DNA of 48,606 bases from Thermoanaerobaculia bacterium (GTDB lineage: Bacteria > Acidobacteriota > Thermoanaerobaculia > Gp7-AA8). Shown piece by piece: positions 29,125 to 37,363 of this stretch. The notes under the pieces were generated by a model. It did not search any database, was not told the DNA's origin, and saw only the letters and a list, made by a program, of their open reading frames with translations. Each line of letters starts with the position of its first letter. The first letter of the stretch is position 1. The translations under genes and the position numbers were made by a program. Location: positions 1 to 48,606 of the forward strand of contig JADGNX010000004.1 in NCBI GenBank assembly GCA_017883265.1, read 5' to 3'.

Positions 29125-29943
29125 ATGCTGCATCCGTCCCTCATGAGCGTTACGCCGGTAGACACGTCGCTGTCGGATCGAACGGTCGTCACCATCGTTC
29201 GCAAGCATCACCGGCTCGTCCGGCTGGCGCACTGGCTCAATCTGCCGATCCTCTTCATGCTGGTTGTGAGCGGACTCGGCATCTACTGGGCTTCTCCGGT
29301 CTTTCTCCATCCGGCGGACCGCGTGACAGCAAGCCGGGACTATCTGGCCGACGCCGGCGCCGCGGTGGCCCGCCACCTCCCGAGCGACGTGCCGCGGGAC
29401 CAGCTGCGGTTCTGGTTCTATCGCCACTTCAGCGTCGGGGTGTATGCGCTGGCCCCGGCTCTCCGTCTGCATTGGCTCTTCGCCTATCTGTTCATGGGGT
29501 GTGGTCTCCTCTACCTCGCCGGCCTTGTCAACGGTGGCGGATACCGCTCCCTCATCCCGCGGCGGAGCGATCCGCGGGAGGCCCTGGCGATGATGCGCTA
29601 TTACTTCGGCCTCGTGCCGATGCGACTCGTCGGGCGCCCCTGGCTCCATCCGCGCGTCCACGGCAAGTACAACGCGCTCCAGCGCGGGGCCTATCTCTCG
29701 ATGCCGCTTTTCGGCCTGCTGGCGATGGCAAGCGGGTGGGCCATGCACAAGCCCGCCCAACTCGGCTGGCTCGAGCGCCTTTTCGGATCGTATGACGGCG
29801 CGCGCATCGTCCACTTCATCGCCATGTGGGTGTTCATAGCCTTCCTCGTCCCGCACATCGTCCTCGTCATCGGCGACGGCTGGGACACCATGCGCTCCAT
29901 GATCGTCGGCTGGTCGAAGCGGATTGGGGAGCCTCATGAGTGA
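29125..29943 (+). CDS. Cytochrome b/b6-type membrane subunit (cytochrome b561-like)
   Basis: HHRLVRLAHWLNLPILFMLVVSGLGIYW, multiple TM His residues (RIVHFIAMWVFIAFLVPHIVLV). Start 29125 or 29143. Confidence 0.85.
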   Translation: MLHPSLMSVTPVDTSLSDRTVVTIVRKHHRLVRLAHWLNLPILFMLVVSGLGIYWASPVFLHPADRVTASRDYLADAGAAVARHLPSDVPRDQLRFWFYRHFSVGVYALAPALRLHWLFAYLFMGCGLLYLAGLVNGGGYRSLIPRRSDPREALAMMRYYFGLVPMRLVGRPWLHPRVHGKYNALQRGAYLSMPLFGLLAMASGWAMHKPAQLGWLERLFGSYDGARIVHFIAMWVFIAFLVPHIVLVIGDGWDTMRSMIVGWSKRIGEPHE

Positions 29944-31036
29944 TGAAGAGAAGACGCCCGAGGCGCCGCTTGCCGCGGAAGCAAAGACCGACCAGGTCCC
30001 CTCATCGCCCGATTCGCCGGTGATCGCGTCGGCGACAACGGAGTCCGAGCGGGAGTCGCTACCCGATTTGCCGGCAACGGAGTCATTCTCAGGATCCGAG
30101 CCGGAATCGGAGGAGGCGGATGGGGCGGCCATCCTCGACGAGACCATGTCAGTTCGCCGTTTGCCGCGGGGCCTCATCGCGCAGATCCTCGCTCCCGAAG
30201 ATGAGACTCCGGTATGGATCGACCCGAAGCGTCTCGGCCGCCAGAGCCGGCGCGATTTTCTTCTCTTCGGCGCCGCCACCGCCGTCTCCGCGGCCGGCGT
30301 CTGGTGGTTGCTTCCAGACGGAACGAAGCAGCAGTGGCTCTCACCTGCTGCGGCCTCCAGGATCGATTCGATCGAAGCGCGCTTCGGCGTTACGGGGCAG
30401 AGACGGGAACGGTTTCTGGGACGGGTCCTCACCTTCGACGATGACGTGGCCGAGGCTCTGTATTCCAGGAATCGGCGGGTGCGGGCATATCGCCCTTCGG
30501 ATGTCACACCGCTCCGAAACAACTACAACGGCCGGACTCCGACGGGCGGTTATCTCGTGTCGTGGAAGCTCACCCTGTCCGGACTTGCCACGGGGAAGGA
30601 AACGACGCTGACCGCCGGCGACCTCTCGCGATTTCCTGTCCGGGACCAGGTCACACGGCTCTGCTGCGTCGAAGGATGGAGCGCTGTCGCGTTCTGGAGC
30701 GGTATTCGGTTCGCCGAGTTGCTGCGCGCTTACCCGCCGGCCCCGGCGGCACGCTGGGCAGCGATCGAGTCGGCCGTCAACCTGGACGGCGCCGGACAGC
30801 CCGACCCGTATTACGTATCAATCGACCTCGATACGGCACTGCATCCGCAAACCCTTCTTGCCACAAAGCAGGACAACCGGCCGCTTTCGCTCGCCCACGG
30901 AGCACCGCTCCGGCTCGTGGTGCCGATGAAGCTCGGCCTCAAGAACATCAAAGCCGTCACTTCGATCCGTTACACCGCCGATGAGCCGCCCGACTACTGG
31001 AACGAGCGCGGCTACTCGAAGTACGACGGGCTCTGA
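29936..31036 (+). CDS. Molybdopterin-dependent oxidoreductase, sulfite-oxidase fold (YedY/MsrP-like)
   Basis: Internal Tat-like motif SRRDFLLFGAATAVSAAGVWWLL; TRLCCVEGWSAVAFWSGIRFAELL Mo-cofactor cysteine region; overlaps the cytochrome b stop. Confidence 0.87.
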   Translation: MSDEEKTPEAPLAAEAKTDQVPSSPDSPVIASATTESERESLPDLPATESFSGSEPESEEADGAAILDETMSVRRLPRGLIAQILAPEDETPVWIDPKRLGRQSRRDFLLFGAATAVSAAGVWWLLPDGTKQQWLSPAAASRIDSIEARFGVTGQRRERFLGRVLTFDDDVAEALYSRNRRVRAYRPSDVTPLRNNYNGRTPTGGYLVSWKLTLSGLATGKETTLTAGDLSRFPVRDQVTRLCCVEGWSAVAFWSGIRFAELLRAYPPAPAARWAAIESAVNLDGAGQPDPYYVSIDLDTALHPQTLLATKQDNRPLSLAHGAPLRLVVPMKLGLKNIKAVTSIRYTADEPPDYWNERGYSKYDGL

Positions 31037-31226
31037 TCCCATGGCCTGTTGACCGATTCCGTTTCTGCTCCTTCCAAGGCCGGCCGAGTCGCTCCGCGAC
31101 GCGACAAGAGCCACCAATGAAGATTCTTGTTCCGCGCCAGCCCGGCCCCTTGTCTCAACGATCAACCATCGAGCCAGGCGCCGCCTGATGCGGCGTTCCT
31201 CCGAAAGTGACTCGAGGAGGTTTGCA

Positions 31227-32027
31227 ATGCGGGAACTGACGTCCCCCGTTGCGGCTCCGACACCAGGCTGTCGGAGCTGCGATCTCGGTACTGTATGTTT
31301 CGACCCTTCCGCGGCCGAACACGCGCTTGTATCCAGAAAGAGGACCGAAGGCACACCGAGTCGTGTGGTTCTCTCGAGCGATCACCCGATCCTGCGCAGC
31401 GCTCTTCGTCTGCTGATCGACACCCGCGAGGGCTACGAGGTCTCGCTCGAGTGCGGGATCTGTCCGAATGCGCTCAGCCTCATCAGCGGTGGCGATATCG
31501 ACGTCCTGCTGCTGGAATTCGATCTCAACGACAACTCTCAGCATCGGCTGGCCGGACTGGAAGCCATTCTCGCCTCGGCGCCGTCACTTCCGGTTCTCAT
31601 CCTGACGACGGAGCCGGATGCCGAGGCCTGCTCTGCAGCCTTTCGATTCGGCGTTCGAGGGATCATCCTGAAGAGCAAGAAGCTGGACGACCTCTTCACC
31701 GCTCTCGACCGGGTCCGGCGTGGCGACACCTGGCTGGAGGGAGCGGCGCTGCACAAGCTTCTCGGCCAGAGCTCGAGCCAGAAGAAGGGTCCTGCCGAAG
31801 ACTCCCGGATCTCGCTTCTGACGCGGCGGGAGCGCGAGATCGTGAACGTGGTCGCTGCCGGAAGAACCAATCGGCAGGTCAGTCAGGCGCTCTTCATTTC
31901 GGATGTGACCGTCCGGCATCACCTCTGCACGATTTTCGACAAGCTTCGGGTCTCGAGTCGCGGGGAGTTGATCGTCTATGCCTATCGCAACGGTCTGGCC
32001 GATCGGAATTCTCTCAATGCCAACTGA
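31227..32027 (+). CDS. LuxR/NarL-family regulator with FNR-like cysteine N-terminus and degenerate receiver
   Basis: RBS cgaggagg before ATG 31227; CRSCDLGTVC; receiver-like VVLSSDHPILRSALRLL...DVLLLEFDL...; HTH LLTRREREIVNVVAAGRTNRQVSQALFISDVTVRHHLCTIFDKLRVSSR. Confidence 0.88.
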   Translation: MRELTSPVAAPTPGCRSCDLGTVCFDPSAAEHALVSRKRTEGTPSRVVLSSDHPILRSALRLLIDTREGYEVSLECGICPNALSLISGGDIDVLLLEFDLNDNSQHRLAGLEAILASAPSLPVLILTTEPDAEACSAAFRFGVRGIILKSKKLDDLFTALDRVRRGDTWLEGAALHKLLGQSSSQKKGPAEDSRISLLTRREREIVNVVAAGRTNRQVSQALFISDVTVRHHLCTIFDKLRVSSRGELIVYAYRNGLADRNSLNAN

Positions 32028-32318: not shown

Positions 32319-32921
32319 ATGAGCGTTTACAACCCCACATCCAGCAGAGTCCGAAGCGATCGCGCGCCGAGGATGGCGGAACCGCGAGCGGCCATCATCG
32401 CCACGTATGCGGAATGGACAGCCATGTCGGCTCTCCGCTCATCGGCCCCGATCCGGTCGCGCAGCGATGTTTACAGAGCGCTGCGAGCCGTCAACTTCAA
32501 GGTGCTGTTCGATATGAGCCTTGGACCGATCGGCCGGGACGACTTCGATGAGTGGCACGAAGAGGCCGCGCGCGCGATGCTGGCACGTGAGCCGCGACTC
32601 ACGGTCGGCTGGGCCACGAAGATCCTGAACGTTTACCTGAAAACCCGCGTGTACGTGGCGGCCGAAGGACGCGAAAATCTGATGGACATGATCCATCCTC
32701 CAATCGACGGCGGCTTGTGGCTCGGTCTGTCGAGACAATTCGCCGGTCAGCCCGAGATTCTGGCCATGACGAACTGCGTCTCGCGCATCAAAGGCATCGT
32801 CGACTACGACTGCTATCGCCGGATCATCGACGGATGCCTCGCCGCCGCCGCACTGCTCGCGTGCAGGCTGATCGAGGTCGAGCAGCTGTGGACCGGCACG
32901 GAGTTCTCTCAATCGGCCTGA
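32319..32921 (+). CDS. Hypothetical protein, no recognised family
   Basis: 200-aa ORF, good codon usage, no overlapping better ORF; GWATKILNVYLKTRVYVAAEGRENLMDMIHPPIDGGLW. Confidence 0.65.
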   Translation: MSVYNPTSSRVRSDRAPRMAEPRAAIIATYAEWTAMSALRSSAPIRSRSDVYRALRAVNFKVLFDMSLGPIGRDDFDEWHEEAARAMLAREPRLTVGWATKILNVYLKTRVYVAAEGRENLMDMIHPPIDGGLWLGLSRQFAGQPEILAMTNCVSRIKGIVDYDCYRRIIDGCLAAAALLACRLIEVEQLWTGTEFSQSA

Positions 32922-33291: not shown

Positions 33292-34638
33292 TTACGGTCT
33301 TTCGACTGTGATCCCGTAAGCGTGCAGTTTACGGTAGAGGTTCGAGCGCTCCACGCCGAGGGCATCGGCGGTGCGGCTGACGTTGCCGGCGAAGTCGCGC
33401 AGGCGGGAGAGGATGAACTGCTTCTCGAACTCGTCGCGCGCTTCGCGGAGCGTCGCATCGTGCGCGATCGTCGTCGAAGACTCGCGCCGCGCTGCGAGCT
33501 CGATCTCCTCCGGCTCGACGAGGTCGTTCGGCGAGAGGATGGCCAGCCGCTCGATCACGTTGCGCAGCTCGCGGACGTTGCCCGGCCAGTCGTGCCCGCG
33601 CAGCCGTGACTGCGCCCCTGCCGAGAGCCTCTTCGGGGGTTGTCCACTCTCGGCGGCGAAGCGCCGGAGGAAGTAGTCGGCCAGAAGGACCACGTCGCCG
33701 CTCCGCTCGCGCAGCGGCGGAACATGGATCGGGATGACCGCCAGGCGGTAATAGAGGTCGCTGCGGAATCGTCCGGCCTCGATCTCCGATTCCAGATTCT
33801 TGTTCGTGGCTGCGATCACCCGGACGTCGACGGTGATGGTCTGCTGGCCTCCGACTTTTTGAAATGTCTGCTCCTGCAGGACGCGCAGCACCTTGGCCTG
33901 CGTCTTCACGCTCATGTCAGCGATTTCGTCGAGAAAGAGCGTCCCTCCGTCGGCCAGCTCGAACTTCCCTTTCCGGTCCTCGGTGGCGCCGGTAAACGCT
34001 CCGCGGCGGTGACCGAACAGCTCCGACTCGATCAATTCCTCGGGAATCGCCGCGCAGTTGACGTCGATGAAGGAGGCCTCGCCTCTGGCCGAGAGCCGGT
34101 GGAGCGTCCTGGCCACGATCTCCTTTCCGCTGCCATTCTCTCCACTGATCAGGACGCGACTATTCGATGGGGCGGCGCCGCGGATCTGCTGATCGAGCTT
34201 CTTCATGGCGTCGCTCTCGCCGATGAGGAGCTCTTCGAGTGTCAGATGCTGCTTGAGATCCCGCACCTGCTCGCGCAGCTTTCGATCGGCCACAGCGTGA
34301 TTGACGGTCAGGAGGACTCGCTCGAGCGAGAGCGGCTTCTCCAGGAAGTCGTACGCCCCCAGACGCGTAGCACGCACGGCGGTGTCGACGTTTCCATGTC
34401 CGGAGATGACTACGATCGGCGGCGCACCGACGGCGCGCAGGCGCTCGAGGACGCTCAGGCCGTCGATTCCTGGAAGCCAGAGGTCGAGGATGATGAGATC
34501 GAACTCCTCCCGCGCGAACTGGGCCAGCCCCTCCTCGCCCGAGCCGCAGAGAAACGTCTTGTGTCCTTCGTCGTGAAGGATGTTGGCGAGCGTGGTCCGG
34601 ATGCCGCTCTCGTCGTCGATGATGAGGATCTTGGCCAT
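33292..34638 (-). CDS. Sigma-54-dependent response regulator (NtrX-like)
   Basis: Receiver ILIIDDESGIRTTLANIL, ESELFGHRRGAFTGA, Fis-type HTH FAGNVSRTADALGVERSNLYRKLHAYGI. Confidence 0.95.
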   Translation of the reverse strand: MAKILIIDDESGIRTTLANILHDEGHKTFLCGSGEEGLAQFAREEFDLIILDLWLPGIDGLSVLERLRAVGAPPIVVISGHGNVDTAVRATRLGAYDFLEKPLSLERVLLTVNHAVADRKLREQVRDLKQHLTLEELLIGESDAMKKLDQQIRGAAPSNSRVLISGENGSGKEIVARTLHRLSARGEASFIDVNCAAIPEELIESELFGHRRGAFTGATEDRKGKFELADGGTLFLDEIADMSVKTQAKVLRVLQEQTFQKVGGQQTITVDVRVIAATNKNLESEIEAGRFRSDLYYRLAVIPIHVPPLRERSGDVVLLADYFLRRFAAESGQPPKRLSAGAQSRLRGHDWPGNVRELRNVIERLAILSPNDLVEPEEIELAARRESSTTIAHDATLREARDEFEKQFILSRLRDFAGNVSRTADALGVERSNLYRKLHAYGITVERP

Positions 34639-34643
34639 GGGCT

Positions 34644-36797
34644 TTACGCCGGCAGTTCGATCTCGAAGCGCGTTCCCTTCGGCTGGTTGTCGTGAACGGA
34701 GATACGGCCGTCATGGTCGTTGACGATACGGTGAACGATGGCCAGCCCGAGGCCCGTGCCGCGCCCCTTGGTGGAAAAGTAGGGAAGGAAGAGCTTTTCC
34801 TTGTCGCTGTCGGGAACGCCGCGGCCCTGGTCGGCCACGTCGATGATGATTCTGCGAGCACGCCTGCGCGCGGTGATCCGGACAGTGCCGTGGTCGGTGG
34901 CCTCGATGGCGTTGCTCAGGAGGTTGACCAGAGCGCGGCGGATCTGTTCGGGATCGACCACCACCTCGATCGAGGGATCGACGTCGATGGCCACGGTGAC
35001 GCCCGGTTTCACGTCGTGGTAGAGCGCCGCGGCCTCGGCCGCGATGTCCGCCAGCCGGGCCTGACGCAGGTGGACGGCAGGCATCCGGGCGAAGCGCGAG
35101 AACTCGTCGACCATCCGCTTCAGATGATTGACCTCGCTCACGATGGTGCCGCAGCCCTCGTCGACTGCGGCAGCGGTGTCCGCATCTCCGTTCCGATACT
35201 TCTTGGCGATCCGTTCGGCCGAAAGCTGAATCGGGGTCAGCGGGTTCTTGATCTCATGAGCGATTCTCCGCGCGGCTTCGTTCCACGCGGCCAGTTTCTG
35301 GGCCTGAACGAGCTGGGTGGAATCTTCGATGGCTACAACCCATCCCTTCTGTCCGGCAGCCGATTCCAGACGGGCCGCCGACACTTCGAGGTAACGCAGC
35401 TCGCCGCCGCGGATGAGCGTCACTTCGCGGGTTCGCATCTGACGCTCGTCGAGATGTCTGAGGACGTCGCCCAGAACGGCGAGATCGCCCGAGAGGACTT
35501 CGTCGAGCGATGCGCGCGGCGCGAGCTTGTCGATCTGCAGAATCCGCAGCGCGGCCGGATTGCTCGAGAGGATCTCGAGGGCCTCGTTGAAGGCGATGAT
35601 GCCGGTCGAGACGCTGTCGAGCACTGAGAAGAGATAGGCGCGCTGATCGTCCAGACGCCGGTTGAGCTGTTGCAGCACCTCGTTCGAATCGGTCAGCGCT
35701 TCTCTTTGCGATTCGATCTGCTGCGACATCTGATTGAACGAGTCGATGAGGCGTCCCAACTCGTCGGTTCCCGACACGTCGATGCGATGGCCGTAGCCTC
35801 CCTCTGCCAGCCGGGTCGTGGCCTCTGCCAGAGCCTTGATGGGGACTGTGATTCGCCGGGAAGCGTAGATCGAAGTCCAGAGTGTGAAGAAGAGAATGGC
35901 CAGGGTGACCGCAAGGAAGAGAGATGTCTGCGAGGCCTTGAGGGCCGGGCGTTGCGAGTCCAGCTGCTGGAAGCTCTTGTGAGCGATGACGTTCTCGTCG
36001 ATCATCCGGCCTATGGTGTCGGGGATGAAGACACCGGCCAGAGCGGTCAGTCTTTCCTTCGACCCCCCCGCCACCGGCACCGCGCAGCGGATCCATTTGC
36101 CGCTGTTTCCGATGTCGATCTTCTGCTCGAAGCCGCGAGTCATGACGTCGTCGAAGAAGTGCTGCGGCGGCTCTCCGATCTCCTGCAGCGGTGCTCGCGG
36201 ATTGGCCACCAGTCCGATGATGGCGCCATCGCGGTAAACGCCGACGACGTCGACGTTGTGAAACTCCCGCACGTGCGCCAGGACCTTATCCGTGCGCGCC
36301 GGGTCACCGATCCCCTCGCTTGCGGCGATCTCTCTGGCGGCCGAGAGGGCCTCGGCAGCCATGCGTCCCTGGGCGGCCGCGGCGATCGCTTCGCTGTTCT
36401 GCAGCAGCGTTCGCACTGCCGGGTTGAACCACCGGTCGATGGAGACCCGCAGCAGATCGGAGGCGAACAAAAAAAGGATGACTACAGGGACGAGCGATGT
36501 GGCCACCCAGGTGATGACCAGGCGGGTCCGGAAACGCGAACCGACGATTCCGCGTTGCCGTTCGAGGATCAGTTTGACCACTCCCCGCAATATTACGAAG
36601 ACGATGCCGAGAATGAGGATGAGATTGATGTCGAAAAGAACGAAAAGAAGCACCCGGCTGCTCAGCGCTTCAGGGGAAAGCTCCTTGGCTTTCTGAATGA
36701 GGTAATAGACCAGCGAGGTGACCGCGAGGATCAGCAGAGGCAGCGCGATGATGAATCGCGGATCCTTGCGATACCGAAGTATCTCCTGCGGCTTCAT
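34644..36797 (-). CDS. Sensor histidine kinase (NtrY-like; HAMP, PAS, HisKA, HATPase)
   Basis: IAHEIKNPLTPIQLSAERIAKKY; GRGVPDSDKEKLFLPYFSTKGRGTGLGLAIVHRIV; likely start MKPQEILRYRKD at 36797. Confidence 0.94.
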   Translation of the reverse strand: MKPQEILRYRKDPRFIIALPLLILAVTSLVYYLIQKAKELSPEALSSRVLLFVLFDINLILILGIVFVILRGVVKLILERQRGIVGSRFRTRLVITWVATSLVPVVILFLFASDLLRVSIDRWFNPAVRTLLQNSEAIAAAAQGRMAAEALSAAREIAASEGIGDPARTDKVLAHVREFHNVDVVGVYRDGAIIGLVANPRAPLQEIGEPPQHFFDDVMTRGFEQKIDIGNSGKWIRCAVPVAGGSKERLTALAGVFIPDTIGRMIDENVIAHKSFQQLDSQRPALKASQTSLFLAVTLAILFFTLWTSIYASRRITVPIKALAEATTRLAEGGYGHRIDVSGTDELGRLIDSFNQMSQQIESQREALTDSNEVLQQLNRRLDDQRAYLFSVLDSVSTGIIAFNEALEILSSNPAALRILQIDKLAPRASLDEVLSGDLAVLGDVLRHLDERQMRTREVTLIRGGELRYLEVSAARLESAAGQKGWVVAIEDSTQLVQAQKLAAWNEAARRIAHEIKNPLTPIQLSAERIAKKYRNGDADTAAAVDEGCGTIVSEVNHLKRMVDEFSRFARMPAVHLRQARLADIAAEAAALYHDVKPGVTVAIDVDPSIEVVVDPEQIRRALVNLLSNAIEATDHGTVRITARRRARRIIIDVADQGRGVPDSDKEKLFLPYFSTKGRGTGLGLAIVHRIVNDHDGRISVHDNQPKGTRFEIELPA

Positions 36798-37363
36798 GGG
36801 CCGGGGGCCTCGCCGGATACGCGAGCTTCTCTCCAGTGCGTGGCGACCTCCCACGGAACCACGTACATCAGCCAGCCGCGCATCACGTCCGCCTTGACCC
36901 GCACTTTGACTTTGTATGGACGACGGTTTCCTATGTCGAAGAGATCGGCCTCTTCGATGGTGGTCATGCGCCGCTCCAGCGCGCCGAGGTCGTTGAAAGT
37001 CTCCGAGCGGACCAGACGGCGGTCCCGCCGGTAGTTGAGGAGGTATTCCTGGGTGCGCGAGTTGAAGGTGGCAATCACTTCGATCCGCGATCTCCCCAGT
37101 CCTTCATCGAACCAGTTTGGCCGGTCGCGGAAAATCTCGATGATGTAGGTAAAGCTGGTGGGAATGCCGCTCTGCAACCCTTTGATCAGTTGCGGGTCGT
37201 CGAACGCGTCATGGAGAGCGAAACGGACGGTCACCAGACCGTGCGCCGCATTGGCGGTCAGATCGACGATCCTCGGCTCGGCTGCCGACGCTGTGGTGGC
37301 CAGGAGCAGAGCAGCGAGAAGGAAAGGGAAGAGCCTGCGCACGGTGTGTGGCTTTTTTACCAC
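36794..37363 (-). CDS. DUF4390-like secreted protein
   Basis: Signal peptide LFPFLLAALLLATTASAA; FTYIIEIFRDRPNWFDEGLGRSRIEV; 4-nt overlap with the kinase. Start inferred (GTG near 37363; ORF track 37537). Confidence 0.7.
   Translation of the reverse strand: MVKKPHTVRRLFPFLLAALLLATTASAAEPRIVDLTANAAHGLVTVRFALHDAFDDPQLIKGLQSGIPTSFTYIIEIFRDRPNWFDEGLGRSRIEVIATFNSRTQEYLLNYRRDRRLVRSETFNDLGALERRMTTIEEADLFDIGNRRPYKVKVRVKADVMRGWLMYVVPWEVATHWREARVSGEAPGP

Follow-up and report, generated by a model that had tools for sequence, protein, structure and literature searches.

The gene at positions 31227-32027 (+) encodes a response regulator of the NarL/LuxR type with a conserved, cysteine-containing N-terminus. 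Judged from its sequence, it is probably an orphan NarL-type regulator that was turned into a direct redox or metal sensor by means of its cysteines within one small lineage of the Acidobacteriota. The window, i.e. the whole stretch of 48,606 nucleotides that was analysed, originates from a Thermoanaerobaculia bacterium with a genome bin of 3.93 Mb (95.6% complete). The translation comprises 266 amino acids, opening with MRELTSPVAAPTPGCRSCDLGTVCFDPSAAEHAL, and the assignment as Cys-tagged regulator is based on this translation, on Pfam and on three full-length relatives. A receiver domain (REC, aa 51-160, 31377..31706, +; PF00072 Response_reg, E 5.9e-10) is followed by a LuxR/GerE helix-turn-helix (aa 197-252, 31815..31982, +; PF00196, E 3e-15), which agrees with the normal LuxR domain of the original prediction. 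Both matches exceeded the curated cut-offs, and the fold search gave the same result.

For the translation start, a ribosome-binding site GAGGAGG (31214..31220, +) was found six bases 5' of the ATG. Across this site and the start, 22 of 23 bases are identical to the paralogue on contig C404 of the same genome. Thus, the start at 31227 is supported, and a true start downstream of the cysteine motif finds no support. This short stretch is also the sole notable similarity between the upstream regions of the window gene and C404; beyond it, no common operator was found 5' of the four genes known to date. The whole-gene dN/dS of the window copy versus the other members amounts to about 0.16-0.23, a rough value with dS near saturation. 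The window gene is therefore not decaying.

The N-terminal motif C15-x2-C18-x2-G21-x2-C24 is encoded at 31269..31298 (+), exactly where a C-x2-C-x5-C pattern had been predicted. The examination of relatives, proposed as a check of this pattern, revealed that all three cysteines are kept in the three full-length relatives (67-69% identity). The consensus of the four members is G-C-x-S-C-[DN]-x-G-x2-C-F-D-x-S-A. At the cysteine codons, synonymous changes between TGT and TGC occur with retention of the amino acid, and dN is lower than dS; this fits a translated sequence under selection. Among the three paralogues of the window genome the N-terminus is about 40% identical outside the motif and 52-67% identical inside. 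Since the three cysteines are invariant in four genes with such divergent flanks and with synonymous codon changes, the motif is beyond chance. Translation and conservation of the motif are supported, as is purifying selection on it.

The N-terminus was further compared with PDB, Pfam and NCBIfam. All matches of the tail were either irrelevant or at chance level, and no Fe-S or zinc-finger family was among them. A stretch of a CO dehydrogenase, ACKFCELGTTC, was rejected as relative of the tail (E 1.1, chance level), and the match to DGF-1_N lay below the cut-off. With Pfam, NCBIfam and PDB sequences leaving the N-terminus uncovered, the earlier remark that no described family with this architecture was known holds for these collections. 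In a structure model calculated from an alignment of two sequences, nearly all of residues 1-41 had a pLDDT below 50; this model does not place the N-terminal cysteines.

The three full-length relatives are two paralogues of the same genome, located on contigs C77 (67% identity to the window protein; L032:2455-3276) and C404 (69%; L033:7025-7819), and a gene of another genome of the same family, G013:C192 (68%). Both paralogues have kept the phospho-accepting aspartate. No further members with this N-terminus were detected by alignment search in 19 genomes of the order, 149 of the class and 396 of the phylum. In its tight DNA form, the motif occurred in these four genes only among the class and phylum genomes, with zero matches for a reversed-pattern control. 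Six peptides of the window protein were scanned against 84,980 species and matched only in the Thermoanaerobaculia MAG Chersky.31_28 (L001), whose match agrees with G013:C192 in coordinates and identity; one of the peptides, HHLCTIFD, is common to all four members. In viral contigs the family alignment detected no relative, and the motif pattern alone gave 14 short matches at pattern level. Thus, the distribution is narrow and comprises two genomes of one family among the genomes searched.

In the phylogenetic tree the four members, all fairly closely related, form one clade with a support of 100/100, and two untagged regulators (L043, L045) are the sister group. Because of this fully supported clade beside untagged relatives, a single gain of the cysteine set on a long stem branch is the simplest explanation. 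A chimaeric bin was considered as cause of the three paralogues and rejected, as the three contigs agree in GC (about 0.63) and in tetranucleotide profile (r 0.92-0.96); this is a weak argument, since the profiles of further genomes from the family come almost as close.

Six cysteines are invariant in all four members: C15, C18, C24, C79, C135 and C234. The columns were compared in a multiple alignment with 66 other Acidobacteriota regulators. C79 (31461..31463, +), located before receiver helix alpha-2, occurs in none of the 66 others, and C135 (31629..31631, +) in receiver helix alpha-4 occurs in one of them. Both are candidates for a fourth ligand or a redox thiol. C234 (31926..31928, +), likewise absent from the 66, belongs to the recognition helix and is aligned with a lysine of NarL 1a04. 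We take this lysine to be K192, a residue contacting DNA; therefore, a modification at C234 should affect DNA binding. C-x2-C-x5-C was found in none of the 66 regulators, the N-terminal columns being less certain due to upstream extensions with unverified starts. Extra cysteines in ECGIC and EACSAA had been proposed as source of a fourth ligand. The second cysteine of ECGIC, which is C79, and C135 are indeed conserved; the first cysteine of ECGIC is not.

Three kinds of chemistry can be discussed for these residues. We put an Fe-S cluster first, because three clustered cysteines with FNR spacing, which require a fourth ligand, are accompanied by several conserved candidates for it and by no conserved histidine. 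That the N-terminal cysteines together with an internal one hold such a putative cluster is a tentative proposal, to which we give somewhat less than an even chance; thiol switches or zinc ligands are equally conceivable roles for these residues. C-x2-C pairs are common zinc ligands, and the tail with its low model confidence might fold on metal binding. C15, C18 and C24 could then bind Zn2+ together with C79, C135 or D26, and the site would fold the tail or an interface of the dimer without taking part in redox sensing. However, only three cysteines are clustered and no zinc-finger family was matched. The N-terminus of the four members has no conserved histidine either, which makes a classical zinc site less likely. 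Hence, we consider structural zinc improbable.

A thiol-disulfide switch without cluster would use the N-terminal cysteines and C79, C135 and C234 for intra- or intermolecular disulfides, formed on oxidation and altering the oligomeric state or DNA binding. RitR, Rre1, HP1021 and PedR are models for this, and several thiol switches are known among response regulators and LuxR-type regulators. The six invariant, lineage-specific cysteines, one of them on the DNA-recognition helix, fit such a switch, and so does a peroxidase gene near the regulator in two loci. On the other hand, the tight C-x2-C-x5-C with its conserved central glycine and the following F-D resembles a metal site more than a two-cysteine switch, and three clustered cysteines exceed the need of a disulfide. 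Taken together, a thiol switch is rather unlikely, yet clearly ahead of structural zinc.

The genomic neighbourhood was also examined. The window gene comes after a cytochrome b561-type gene and a molybdopterin oxidoreductase gene (Oxidored_molyb) at 29128-31036 (+), a position that had been seen as suiting a redox role. The pair was also detected in at least five further genomes of the family (G013, G017, G004, G009 and G001) with about 57-67% identity, and the regulator adjoins it in none of the stretches examined. Two of these stretches reach a contig edge within two kilobases. Thus, the link of the regulator to the cytochrome b/molybdo-oxidoreductase pair is weak. Directly 3' of the regulator, a protein of 200 amino acids is encoded at 32319-32921 (+); neither Pfam nor PADLOC returned a match for it, and homologues are absent from the remaining 18 genomes of the order. 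Further downstream on the opposite strand (33292-36854, -), a sigma-54-type regulator and kinase pair similar to NtrX/NtrY was found, with no sign of a link.

The orthologous copies of C77 and G013 are both arranged tail-to-tail with a CCP_MauG di-haem cytochrome c peroxidase gene and, on the same side, a gene for a PKD-domain protein (L032:6065-8695 and L034:2362-4962). At the C77 locus regulator and peroxidase are separated by a kinase gene and a TIG-domain gene. The peroxidase is present in two of the 19 genomes of the order, namely those holding the regulator, and no match was obtained in the other 17. More distant homologues of it occur in two other Acidobacteriota genomes, and a match to the motif is absent there. 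This co-occurrence, with its small numbers, suggests a role of the regulator in the response to peroxide or redox changes. It rests on two orthologous loci, and shared ancestry may be its cause. The kinase beside the C77 copy was rejected as dedicated partner: it has close homologues in genomes without the regulator, and G013 contains an orthologous regulator but no match to the kinase, so that it is probably not dedicated.

The phospho-site of the receiver was analysed by alignments and with the structure model. S51-D52 (31377..31382, +) replaces the acidic DD pair, as had been noticed before; SD was found in all four members, and Asp-Asp is usual in homologues. The glutamate predicted at the phospho-acceptor position (31515..31517, +) is E97. 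In the model it is the last residue of strand beta-3, and its column is occupied by aspartate in 55 of 66 homologues. A local phmmer alignment to NarL leaves a gap at the E97 stretch and pairs D99 with the aspartate of NarL. Despite this gap, E97 is assigned to the phospho-site because the D-x4-D distance without gaps, its place in the modelled strand and the multiple alignment all lead to this position. The residues T127 and K149 are of the normal type. The canonical combination (DD, D, T/S, K) is thus absent from the window copy, which does not exclude membership in the NarL/LuxR family, because degenerate sites are known there.

A replaced phospho-aspartate, the feature of aspartate-less receivers (ALR), was found in the window copy only. 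The glutamate is not conserved: no other member shares it with the window copy, and the three relatives carry aspartate. Phosphorylation independence, as inferred originally, can therefore not be assumed for the four-member family, three members of which keep the phospho-aspartate. Ordinary phosphorylation is consequently possible and counts against the Fe-S reading. In a further reading, the protein would be a common NarL-type regulator driven by phosphorylation, its tail a lineage-specific extension with no sensing role and the window copy a phospho-mimic or a divergent paralogue. Aspartate, threonine and lysine of the phospho-site are kept in three of the four members, and related regulators of Acidobacteriota often have degenerate receivers. 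Glutamate is in general the commonest replacement in aspartate-less receivers (26%), where it mimics phosphorylation sometimes, but not always (PMC4395418). Nevertheless, all three N-terminal cysteines are selectively kept in a fast-changing tail, along with three more invariant, lineage-specific ones. For this reason an ordinary regulator seems as improbable to us as the zinc site.

Several related NarL-type regulators of Acidobacteriota (L077-L079, L083, L087, L088) also possess degenerate receiver sites with an altered acidic pair and an intact helix-turn-helix. Their phospho-aspartate is replaced by Gly, Ala and others. They possibly represent a larger family of phosphorylation-independent regulators.

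Returning to the Fe-S reading, C15, C18 and C24 would hold an oxygen- or peroxide-labile cluster together with one internal cysteine. Presence or loss of the cluster would change dimerisation or DNA binding, with C234 located on the recognition helix. Phosphorylation would be optional and probably absent in the window copy with its Glu for Asp. At the orthologous loci of C77 and G013, the nearby di-haem cytochrome c peroxidase may be a target. In its full form, this proposal implies that an Fe-S cluster at an FNR-spaced site arose independently on a NarL-type regulator, that oxygen or peroxide is sensed directly with the kinase being dispensable, and that the paralogues are at different stages of phospho-site loss. 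We regard this full form as possible but doubtful, a little less probable than the cluster itself. If the cysteines do bind a cluster, a response regulator that binds DNA would carry an Fe-S sensor of its own and would parallel FNR by convergence, on the scaffold of a two-component system. The output of such a system would have been redirected to redox sensing by a single component. Within one genome, the three paralogues (Asp, Asp, Glu) would offer a natural series for the loss of phospho-control once a direct sensor is gained.

Compared to known systems, the window protein corresponds over aa 43-258 to NarL/LuxR-type regulators such as NarL, VraR and LiaR, with receiver and GerE helix-turn-helix. 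Its best PDB matches are LiaR/VraR 5hev (E 5e-18) and NarL 1a04 (E 8e-18), and the same was obtained by fold. In contrast to these proteins, it is extended at the N-terminus by about 42 residues containing C-x2-C-x5-C, and it has SD for DD, a cysteine in the recognition helix and, in the window copy, glutamate for the phospho-aspartate. In WhiB-like proteins the last three cluster ligands are arranged as C-x2-C-x5-C, but the Cys-tagged regulator has no further upstream cysteine and no match to this family.

The spacing of the three N-terminal cysteines, conserved in all four members, is that of FNR (C20-x2-C23-x5-C29), the [4Fe-4S] oxygen sensor of the CRP/FNR family, as originally recognised, and the cluster of FNR is bound by C20, C23, C29 and C122 (PMC6828653). 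Past the spacing the likeness ends: no meaningful match to FNR or any other Fe-S protein was obtained, and the residues around the motif are not common to the four-member family. The similarity once seen in EH-L is limited to the window copy; the relatives have DRAR, EWAR and ERAH. A CRP-like sensor domain and an FNR-type helix-turn-helix are absent, as searches of Pfam, NCBIfam and PDB gave receiver and LuxR-type matches only. An equivalent of C122 by homology is also lacking; C79, C135 or C234 could be the counterpart as candidate fourth ligand.

A precedent for a receiver gaining an Fe-S site in one genus is FixT of Caulobacter, which has lineage-restricted cysteines and is reported to bind an Fe-S cluster and to function as oxygen/redox sensor (PMC7078487). 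FixT, however, is a lone receiver without helix-turn-helix, which carries the four-cysteine motif C53/C56/C59/C64 inside the receiver and inhibits the kinase FixL (PMC7078487). In the window protein, three cysteines precede the receiver and scattered single ones lie inside. Thiol-switch response regulators have been described with RitR (PMC5965902), HP1021 (PMC8266642) and Rre1 (PMC9321951), and PedR is a redox-responsive LuxR-type regulator (PMC13421787). RitR, HP1021, Rre1/RpaA/RpaB and PedR are controlled by cysteine oxidation, some independently of phosphorylation; the conserved cysteines of our four members are candidates for a comparable control. These systems use thiol chemistry rather than a clustered three-cysteine site, with one linker cysteine in RitR and one cysteine in PedR, and an N-terminal C-x2-C-x5-C is not mentioned in the passages considered. 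A DNA-binding response regulator with an FNR-spaced N-terminal motif was not found in the literature searched, which did not include most subscription papers. Receivers with Fe-S clusters (FixT) and with thiol switches (RitR, HP1021, Rre1) are already known, and the window protein is probably a variation on this theme with an N-terminal, FNR-spaced cysteine motif.
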